Below are positions 5,794 through 47,063 of a stretch of DNA of 64,000 bases, piece by piece. The stretch covers positions 3,968,001 to 4,032,000 of the forward strand of contig NZ_CP065230.1 of assembly GCF_015767635.1 (NCBI RefSeq). Direction: 5' to 3'. Positions within the stretch are counted from its first letter, which is position 1, and every line of letters starts with the position of its first letter. A model generated the notes under the pieces. The model had not been told where the DNA came from and searched no databases. It saw only the letters and a program-made list of their open reading frames with translations. The position numbers were made by a program, and so were the translations under genes. The stretch comes from Halomonas sp. A40-4 (GTDB lineage Bacteria; Pseudomonadota; Gammaproteobacteria; Pseudomonadales; Halomonadaceae).

Positions 5794-7602
5794 ATGTCAC
5801 CCCCCTCCCCCCCGTCGCCCAGCCACTCGCAACACGCTCAAGAACATCGACTGCACGGTGGCGACGTACCTGACTACCCCCGCGCCATGACCCAACGCCT
5901 CGCACACTGGGCCAGTGAAACACCGCAGCAAACGTTTCTGGCGGAGCGAGTGGATGGACCGCAGAAGTGGCGAACGCTGACGTTTGGCGATGCGATGGCC
6001 CGGGTGACCTGCCTGGCACAGGCATTGCTCGATCACGGCTTGTCAGCGGAACGTCCGCTGATGGTGCTATCTGGCAATAGCATTGACCATGCCCTGCTCG
6101 CCTGTGCCGCCATGCATGTCGGCATTCCCTACGTGCCGGTCTCGCCTTCTTACGCGCTGCTGTCCGAAGACTTCGTCAAGCTGCAGCATGTGATGGCGCT
6201 GGTGACACCGGGCATGGTTTTTGTCGATGACGAGTCGCGCTTTAGCCAGGCGCTGGCGGTCGTTTGCGACGACAACATTACCTGCGTGGCCAGCGCGCCA
6301 GCTCAACGGTCCCTGGCGCTCGCGTCACTCGCCGCGACACCGGCAAGCGCCGCAGTTGACGCCGCCCACGTCTGCGTAACGCCTGACAGTGTCGCCAAGT
6401 TACTGTTTACCTCAGGATCGACGGGCATGCCCAAGGCGGTGATTAACACCCACCGCATGCTGTGCAGCAATCAAGCCATGCTGACGAAGCGACTGGGCTT
6501 TCTGGAGCAGCGCAAACCCGTGCTGGTCGACTGGCTGCCCTGGCACCATACCTTCGGCGGCAATACCATTCTGGGAATGGCGATTCACAACGGCGGCACT
6601 TTATACATTGATGACGGCAACCCCACGGCCCAGGGAGTTCGTCGTACCGCCGAGAACCTGCGCGAGGTTTCACCCACGTTTTATTGCAACGTCCCCAAGG
6701 GGTTCGAGGCGCTGGTCGAACACTTACGCGACGACGACACGCTGTGCGCCGCCTTCTTCCGCCACCTGGAAATGATGCACTTCGGCGGCGCCGTGCTGCC
6801 CGGGCATGTGCGAACCGCCCTGGAAACCCTGGGACGACAGAGCCGTGGCGCCCCTGTGCCCATGTTAAGCGGCCTGGGCTCCACGGAAGCGTGCCTGGCC
6901 TTCTGCACCGACGACCCTGGCGACATACCGGGGCTGATAGGCGAGCCCGTTCCCGGCATGACGCTCAAGCTGGTGGCCACGGACGATAAATGGGAAGCGC
7001 GTCTCAAGGGCCTCAACGTCACGCCGGGCTACTGGCGGGATGCCCAGCGGACGCACGAGGCGTTTGACGACGAAGGGTTCTACTGCACCGGCGACGCCAT
7101 GCGCCTGCTTGACCCCGACCACCCGGAGCGGGGGCTGCTGTTCGACGGTCGACTCAGCGAGAACTTCAAGCTGGTCACCGGCACCTGGGTCAATGTGGGC
7201 ACGCTACGCCTGCACCTTGTCGAGCACTTTGCTCCCCTGGTACAGGACATCGTGGTGGTTGGCGAAGGGCGCGACTACCTCACCGGATTCGTCGTCTTGA
7301 ATCTGCCAGCCTGCCAACAGCACCTTGGCCTGGCAAGCGCTTCCCTCGAGGCGATCGCCACGAACCCCGAGCTGCACCAATGGTTCGCCGAACGCCTGGC
7401 CGCGCATGGTCACGGCCAGTCAAGCTCCATGCGGCTGGATCGCCTGCTCCTGCTGGATCAGCCACTCTCCGCCGATCAGGGCGAAGTCACCGACAAAGGG
7501 TCGGTGAATCAGCGGCTGGTTCGCGAGCGCTACCCGAATCTTGTGGCCTGCCTTTACGCCGAGCCGCCTCGGGATCCACGCATTGTGCTGCCCGCCAGTT
7601 GA
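5794..7602 (+). CDS. fcs: feruloyl-CoA synthetase
   Basis: ATP-dependent CoA ligase of the acyl-adenylate-forming superfamily, 602 residues. The adenylate motif TSGSTGMPK is at about 206-214, the GLGSTEA segment (A5-type) near 365, and YCTGDA further on. It activates ferulate, coumarate or caffeate to the CoA thioester used by Ech. I chose the ATG at 5794 because GGAG lies 8 bases before it; another in-frame ATG is at 5782 without a clear ribosome site. The N-terminus is rich in Pro/Ser ([10 protein letters not shown]). It is divergent from the marR gene and followed by a thiolase in the same direction, as in Pseudomonas ferulate loci. Confidence 0.92.
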
Positions 7603-28309: not shown

Positions 28310-29260
28310 ATGCTCGCGATACTGGGAATCACCACCCCCATATTCCTGCTGATTGGCGTAGGCTACGCAGCGAGATGGAGCGGCATTATCCAGCGCGAGC
28401 AGCTGCAGGGAGTGGGCGTATTCGTGCTCTACTGCTCGCTACCGGCGCTCGTGATTCGTGCGTTAACCCAGCAGCCTCTGGAAGAGATACTTAGGCTCGA
28501 CTACCTGATCGCTTACGGCTTGAGCTCCATCGTCGTTTTCAGCGCAGGGTTGTGGCTTTGCTACCGGCTCCAGCGCCAACCGCTCAACGTCAGCGCCATG
28601 CAGGCACTGGGTATGGCCGCGGCCAATAGCGGTTTCGTTGGCTACCCGGTGGCCGCCATGGTCATCGGCTCACCCGCCGCGGTGCTCTTGGCACTGAATA
28701 TGCTGATTGAAAATCTTCTGATTATTCCGGCAGCACTGATCCTTGCTGAAATGGGCAACCAACACGGCGCCAGCCCGTGGCAAACCGCTCGGCAGACGGC
28801 GCTGAACCTGGCCAAAAACCCGGTATTGATCGGCCTCTCGGTAGGCATATTGATCGCGCTAACCGGACTGGTCATTCCCACTCCCATTGATAAAGCGATC
28901 AATATGCTCGCTGAAGCGGCAGGGCCTGCAGCGCTGTTTGTGATTGGTGGGTCGCTGTTTGGGCTTCACGTTAAGGGCATGGTGCGCGACGTGGGCCAAA
29001 TTGTGATCGGCAAACTTATCCTTCATCCCCTGGCAGTATTGATGGCGTTTCTTCTGATCCCCGATATCGAGCCAATTTACGTTGCCGGTGCGCTGCTGTT
29101 CGCCGCCGCGCCGATGATCAGCATTTATCCACTCTTCGGTCAGCGCTACGGTCTCGGTGGCATCAGCGCCACCGCCATGCTGGTGGCGACGGTGGCGTCC
29201 TTCTTTACGCTTAGCTTGATCATCGGGGGGATGACACTTGCGGGATTGCTCGCCGTGTAG
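28310..29260 (+). CDS. AEC (auxin efflux carrier) family transporter
   Basis: Membrane protein of 316 residues with about ten hydrophobic helices and a central soluble loop, as in AEC carriers. The ATG at 28310 is preceded by AAGGGG; another ATG six codons earlier has no ribosome site. The family includes malate and malonate carriers and many of unknown cargo. It lies after the shikimate/quinate operon with its own inverted repeat upstream, so a role in moving an aromatic-pathway organic acid is possible but unproven. Its stop is 11 bases from the end of the converging aroQ, with no terminator between them. Confidence 0.85.
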   Translation: MLAILGITTPIFLLIGVGYAARWSGIIQREQLQGVGVFVLYCSLPALVIRALTQQPLEEILRLDYLIAYGLSSIVVFSAGLWLCYRLQRQPLNVSAMQALGMAAANSGFVGYPVAAMVIGSPAAVLLALNMLIENLLIIPAALILAEMGNQHGASPWQTARQTALNLAKNPVLIGLSVGILIALTGLVIPTPIDKAINMLAEAAGPAALFVIGGSLFGLHVKGMVRDVGQIVIGKLILHPLAVLMAFLLIPDIEPIYVAGALLFAAAPMISIYPLFGQRYGLGGISATAMLVATVASFFTLSLIIGGMTLAGLLAV

Positions 29261-46548: not shown

Positions 46549-46611
46549 CGTATGCGCAAGGCCAGTATACAGAGGCTGAAAGAAGGGAAAGCTGACGTTG
46601 TTAAAAGGCTG

Positions 46612-46643
46612 ACAAAAACAAGACCCCGCCAAGGCGGGGTCTT
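46612..46643 (-). terminator. strong intrinsic terminator of the candidate small RNA
   Basis: Minus strand: AAGACCCCGC-CTTG-GCGGGGTCTT followed by GTTTTTG. The T run is on the minus-strand side only, so it ends a leftward transcript and not cysZ. Confidence 0.85.
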
Positions 46644-46824
46644 CGACAGTGATCATTTTAGGCGGTGGTGCTTACCAGCTTCCAATCCTTTTGCGGGACT
46701 CCAACCGTGGACGTTACCCTGACTGGCAGTGTGACCGCCTTCTAGACTCATCCAATGAATCTTGAATCATCCCTGCTAATGCAGAACATCCTTGCTCGGC
46801 ATTGGGCTACTGTCTAAGCGTAGT
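46612..46824 (-). ncRNA. candidate Csr/Rsm-type small regulatory RNA
   Basis: The minus strand shows an RNA-like segment of roughly 210 bases ending in a strong terminator, with no usable reading frame. It has six GGA triplets. Two sit in hairpin loops: AGATTCA-TTGGA-TGAGTCT (46744-46762, a seven-pair stem with one GU) and GAGC-AAGGAT-GTTC. A seven-base helix AGGCGGT/ACCGCCT closes an inner domain. GGA in hairpin loops is the hallmark of RNAs that titrate CsrA/RsmA. The 5' end is uncertain; a TGTAAG half site like part of a GacA box lies upstream at 46871-46876. Another kind of structured RNA is possible. Confidence 0.45.
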
Positions 46825-46853
46825 TACTTTTCTTTGTTTCGTAAAGAAAAGTA
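46825..46853. repeat. perfect 11-base inverted repeat near the small RNA 5' end
   Basis: TACTTTTCTTT-GTTTCGT-AAAGAAAAGTA. It lies where the promoter or the first bases of the small RNA would be. It may be a hairpin, a regulator site or a member of a dispersed repeat family; only one copy is in this window. Confidence 0.55.
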
Positions 46854-47021
46854 TCAACAGTTTTCTGCATCTTACAGTGACAGATACTGTCTTGCCTATA
46901 GAAGAGCATCCTCTATGCCAGCTTTTCGCTATTTCACTTATTAGCCATTAATAACAATGAGTTAAATTACATTCACTATGCCAATTGATCGCCAGGAGGT
47001 GTCATTTGGATACGCTGGATA

Positions 47022-47063
47022 TGTGTCGCAATGGCACATGTGACGCCGTTACTCAGCGACACA
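47022..47063. repeat. inverted repeat directly after the phoR stop
   Basis: TGTGTCGC (47022-47029) and GCGACACA (47056-47063), perfect inverted copies around a 26-base loop with an inner CACATGTG palindrome. It begins six bases after phoR and may stabilise or end the phoBR mRNA; there is no T run. Confidence 0.45.

Follow-up and report, generated by a model that had tools for sequence, protein, structure and literature searches.

Genomic setting and predicted transcript

In the 64,000-nt stretch analysed here (the window), which comes from the 4.15-Mb, single-contig genome of Halomonas sp. A40-4, pstB, phoU and a cysZ-like gene on the plus strand are followed by a 520-bp gap and then by phoR, phoB and ubiA on the minus strand (gene names are from reading of the translations). 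Does the minus strand of this gap, which adjoins the phosphate-sensor gene phoR, encode an RNA in its own right, and what might such an RNA do? The initial annotation had described a structured, non-coding segment that ends in a one-directional terminator, and both parts of this description hold: the segment has a fold z-score of -3.0 against shuffles, no minus-strand ORF of at least 60 aa occurs between phoR and the terminator, and a T run accompanies the terminator stem (46643..46620) in the minus orientation only. The interval from phoR to the element showed no terminator. From the promoter geometry, transcription is predicted to start at about 46894 on the minus strand. Conservation, structure, motif enrichment, conservation of the promoter and enhancer motifs and absence of the ORF were all computed, and the features are as follows.

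46606..46894, minus strand: predicted RNA of about 290 nt, from the start given by promoter geometry to just beyond the terminator's T run; fold z-score -3.06
46613..46643, minus strand: intrinsic terminator with T run, a stem of 10 pairs followed by GTTTTTGT; covaries in relatives
46660..46740, minus strand: conserved core with outer helix AGGCGGU/ACCGCCU, inner helix GCCAGU/GCUGGU, GGG/CCC, UCCA/UGGA and single-stranded GCAAAAGGAUUGGAAG
46744..46762, minus strand: SL4, GGA hairpin AGAUUCA(UUGGA)UGAGUCU
46767..46775, minus strand: third GGA site CAGGGAUGA at the SL3 position, weakly paired in the window copy
46784..46797, minus strand: SL2, GGA hairpin GAGCA(AGGA)UGUUC; the homologous helix covaries
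46825..46853, minus strand: SL0, 11-pair A/U-rich hairpin UACUUUUCUUU-ACGAAAC-AAAGAAAAGUA, found in the window's clade
46905..46920, minus strand: putative sigma-54 (RpoN) promoter TGGCATAGAGGATGCT, a TGGCAC-type -24/-12 match with GG-N10-GC
47021..47040, minus strand: enhancer-like upstream site CATGTGCCATTGCGACACAT, an imperfect dyad TGTGYC-N5-GRCACA with conserved CATGTGYCA

We interpret this element as probably an independent small RNA some 290 nt long, a CsrA decoy of the Csr/Rsm type under RpoN control. Two other readings of the gap were dropped. A cis-acting leader was rejected because the downstream cysZ is convergent, and a 32-aa minus-strand ORF (46751..46653) was dismissed by eye as a hidden small gene because relatives have stop codons right after its start.

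GGA hairpins and conserved core

The initial annotation had likened the segment to CsrB/RsmZ-type RNAs, on account of six GGA triplets, two of them in hairpin loops. The count is correct for the minus strand, and the two loops belong to the hairpins at 46797..46784 and 46762..46744. Compared with shuffles, the excess is marginal both for the six triplets (3.4 expected, p 0.055) and for the two in loops (0.37 expected, p 0.035); the GGA signal from the window sequence alone is only modestly above chance. Among 43 non-redundant homologues, the means are 7.05 for GGA (4.0 in shuffles), 3.95 for ANGGA (1.3) and 2.63 for hairpin-loop GGA (0.5), with z values that are inflated because the sequences are related. 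When all 64 trinucleotides were ranked by enrichment in predicted hairpin loops, with GGA not preselected, AGG and GGA came out on top, followed by GAT and AAG; read together, these spell AAGGAT, the CsrA motif.

The 5' half of the homologues consists of hairpins with A-x-GGA-type loops. RNAalifold on alignment A1 overlooked them because MAFFT displaces loops that differ in length, and they were assessed by helix counts and per-sequence hairpins. The SL2 helix is paired in 85.6% of cells in 39 sequences, with 23 double-change cells, and a GGA-loop hairpin stands at the SL4 position in 39 of 39 homologues. GGAT at the SL3 position is likewise invariant (39/39), and in several relatives it lies in a hairpin such as AGGCAAGGAUGCCU. 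SL1 takes forms including CGCUC(AGGAGC)GAGCG and CGCCC(AGGAGC)GGGCG. In the window copy, no more than two GGA occupy good hairpin loops; SL1 lacks its GGA, and the SL4 loop reads UUGGA instead of AAGGA. The SL0 stem is mostly retained, with an altered loop, in loci L002-L008.

The core and the terminator are supported by covariation. In 39 distinct homologues, their 28 pairs are formed in 94.4% of cells, against 35-52% for slid controls, and 15 of the 28 have changes on both sides; within the terminator stem of the relatives, double changes affect six of eight pairs. The core pairs GGG/CCC and UCCA/UGGA never or almost never vary and are therefore uninformative on pairing in this set; L129, a divergent homologue, shows a compensatory change to ACCA/UGGU, and its inner helix is recoded. 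Relatives thus conserve the GGA loops and carry compensatory changes in the core helices, the terminator stem and the GGA hairpins, so that the likeness to CsrB/RsmZ survives the conservation check proposed in the initial annotation. Together with the synteny, the GGA-loop hairpin present in all aligned homologues, the presence of csrA and the lack of an Rfam match, this upholds the CsrB/RsmZ-like profile.

The most conserved part of the element is the core at 46724..46677, a nearly invariant 48-nt stretch with invariant unpaired segments; the single-stranded GCAAAAGGAUUGGAAG contains two invariant GGA. Since the core, and not the GGA hairpins, is conserved most, it may serve a separate job. 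The main rival to the decoy reading is accordingly a base-pairing small RNA of the Hfq type, in which the invariant core would be the seed and the GGA motifs incidental or secondary. Its unpaired invariant stretches would suit such a seed and the U tail of the terminator could bind Hfq, but this reading would explain neither the top rank of AGG and GGA among loop trinucleotides nor the covariation of stems with AAGGAU loops. We regard this alternative as unlikely as a replacement for the decoy reading, although a base-pairing role of the core could coexist with it.

Distribution and origin of the RNA

Of the 82 genomes of the genus, 62 gave BLAST matches to the element (a few of them to the terminator alone), and the covariance model R1 detected it in 69. 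The same model gave no match in 193 family genomes outside the genus; the element is therefore no component of Csr systems in general. Among the fetched loci in which both neighbours could be located, the element always sits between phoR and cysZ and shares the strand of phoR. Where cysZ was detected downstream of phoR in the other genera examined, the distance is usually 30-180 bp, with nothing between the two genes. Several species have two tandem copies, of which the second has fewer GGA hairpins; in loci L031, L046, L062, L063 and L065 the second copy keeps the core and SL4, and SL2 is swapped for a GGA-free hairpin.

In most species the order is sigma-54 promoter, small secreted-protein gene, RNA and terminator. 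By this arrangement, the RNA in most relatives is the predicted 3' UTR of an mRNA that is driven by sigma-54 and encodes a small, acidic protein for secretion. The ORF is absent, with promoter and RNA kept, from the window's clade (eight species), L031/L032, L058 and L129. On the PhoR tree these ORF-less loci fall in separate places, and L031, L032 and L058 are nested among ORF-bearing loci. Between the promoter and the RNA, L031 has an apparent remnant of the last codons of the ORF, as an internal deletion would leave, which suggests loss by such a deletion. For the window's clade and L129, either loss of the ORF or its original absence fits equally. In the ORF-less lineages, promoter and RNA have outlasted the protein, a pattern suggestive of selection on the RNA.

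Could the element be a mere 3' UTR, either of phoR by read-through or of the small secreted-protein gene of the relatives, with a structure that protects or ends the mRNA? The missing terminator after phoR and the position of the element directly behind the small ORF in most relatives agree with this, but the element is served by a conserved sigma-54 promoter of its own, and several lineages retain it without the ORF. We give this explanation still less credit than the base-pairing one, and an origin as a 3' UTR is in any case compatible with a decoy function. Tentatively, and with confidence a little short of even, we propose that the 3' UTR of the small secreted-protein mRNA became a CsrA sponge and then, by ORF loss in several lineages including the window's, a stand-alone small RNA, a genus-specific element that would link an RpoN signal to the Csr system. 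ORF-less loci beside ORF-bearing ones would then be a natural record of the passage from mRNA 3' UTR to small RNA.

Promoter and upstream site

The sigma-54 promoter pattern (TGGCAY-N6-TGCW) occurs at a fixed place relative to the transcription unit in nearly every locus. CATGTGYCA is present in 57 of 58 phoR-linked loci and, in all but a few, begins 108-121 bp upstream of the -24 element. Across the family, the combination of CATGTGYCA and the sigma-54 promoter pattern was found in 94 of 275 genomes, and a control with the reversed pattern was almost empty. The genome of strain A40-4 encodes one RpoN and eight full-length Sigma54_activat proteins, so that there are eight candidate activators, including NtrC and one PrsR-like protein below cut-off. 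The latter, an enhancer-binding protein with an unusual N-terminal domain (G000:C1:4103259-4103759, L199), scores 376 bits with TIGR02915 against a cut-off of 502.6, and only analogy makes it a candidate activator. Two more matches to sigma-54-like promoters lie in the window at 6014-6029 and 28689-28704 (both plus strand), three matches being found against 1.16 expected by chance. A sigma-70-like promoter, TTTACA-N17-TACGCT, was considered by eye and discarded because, in relatives, TACGCT forms the 5' strand of a GGA hairpin that covaries.

A TGTAAG half site had been taken as a hint of upstream GacA-type control. The half site is real (46876..46871), but it is located within the predicted transcript, has no partner half and shows no conservation; it is the sigma-54 promoter that is conserved. 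No conserved GacA box (TGTAAG-N5..7-CTTACA) was found upstream, and neither the window's locus nor most relatives have a match of at least 9/12. In addition, neither the window nor nine relatives gave a match over cut-off to any Rfam family, and CsrB (RF00018), RsmY (RF00195) and PrrB_RsmZ (RF00166) had no match over the gathering cut-off genome-wide. The low-threshold Rfam matches (rnk leader, RsmY) were weak, mostly accounted for by the terminator, and were set aside. A classical GacA-controlled homologue of RsmZ or CsrB would be in keeping with the encoded GacA/UvrY and the GGA hairpins, but the lack of a conserved TGTAAG-N6-CTTACA upstream and the sub-threshold Rfam scores here and in relatives make it highly improbable. 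A chance structure without function, which the weak GGA excess of the single sequence might have allowed, is refuted by the genus-wide conservation and the covariation and has next to no probability.

Proposed function and comparison with known systems

The genome encodes CsrA and a UvrY/SirA/GacA response regulator. With GGA in loops and single strands, no coding capacity, its own terminator and csrA in the genome, assignment of the RNA to the Csr/Rsm functional class is supported at the level of sequence. For the decoy reading we infer transcription, CsrA binding, titration and the inducing signal as follows. The sigma-54 promoter at 46920..46905 (minus strand) would drive an RNA of about 290 nt and would require an enhancer-binding protein, which probably acts at the CATGTGCCA site (47040..47032, minus strand); the transcript would end at the terminator at 46643..46620. 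The GGA-loop hairpins of the 5' half and the two single-stranded GGA of the core would offer several sites, and the RNA could therefore bind several dimers of CsrA. Activity of RpoN and its activator would let the RNA accumulate and sequester CsrA, and CsrA-controlled mRNAs would be freed. The action would resemble that of CsrB or RsmZ, but the response would be to an RpoN signal and not directly to GacA.

The predicted RNA shares with CsrB/CsrC and RsmY/RsmZ the GGA-loop hairpins, the non-coding nature, the intrinsic terminator and the presence of CsrA and GacA/UvrY in the genome. In contrast to them, it has no Rfam match over cut-off, has a long core that covaries and includes a nearly invariant stretch of 48 nt, has a sigma-54 promoter instead of a GacA box, and occupies a 3' UTR position in most relatives. 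CrcZ and CrcY of Pseudomonas are decoy RNAs driven by sigma-54 and CbrB, and the CA motifs of CrcZ titrate Hfq/Crc. The RNA proposed here would be similar as a sequestering RNA with a sigma-54 promoter; however, its repeated motif is GGA and not CA, which points to CsrA.

Predictions exist of small RNAs with RpoN sites for Pseudomonas syringae and of GGA RNAs derived from 3' UTRs for Vibrio fischeri (PMC5568370). Since RpoN-linked and 3' UTR-derived RsmA-binding RNAs were thus already predicted, these ideas are not new; however, those RNAs are from other genera, Halomonas being unmentioned, and the present family joins both features in one conserved family. The RNA family and the evidence for it appear to be new. 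A review table of 2020 lists GacS/GacA and CsrA for Halomonas and enters the CsrA-antagonising small RNA as unknown (PMC7366521), and no Csr-type RNA described in Halomonas was found in the literature searched. The element is a concrete candidate, with exact coordinates, for the CsrA-antagonising RNA of Halomonas/Vreelandella. In the relative Halomonas bluephagenesis, a bioplastic production host, sigma-54 and nitrogen state affect PHB (PMC13101641), which would make a link from RpoN to Csr both testable and useful.

An apparent sigma-54 set of small exported proteins in the family

In other genera, the CATGTGYCA/sigma-54 pattern lies upstream of genes for small acidic lipoproteins and secreted proteins. 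From this family-wide pattern, sigma-54 appears to govern a regulon of small, acidic, exported proteins in the family, apparently undescribed, to which the RNA would belong. At loci L156-L185 and L186-L193, the predicted promoters precede small acidic lipoproteins or secreted proteins of the MMSK..LKK.GVLGVSFGL.ASPLA type. A Pfam search with three of these proteins (one shortened, one partial) gave no convincing family. The genome of strain A40-4 has a second unit of this kind (L186; G000:C1:3427503-3427637, minus strand), which encodes a small acidic secreted protein and has a terminator but no GGA RNA; the relatives L188-L190 have one GGA hairpin ahead of the terminator. In two loci of other genera, L158 and L169, the GGA-loop hairpins GGCCACACAGGGATGTGGCC and CCCGATCAGGATGGTCGGG lie between two small exported-protein genes and are possibly CsrA sites in those mRNAs.
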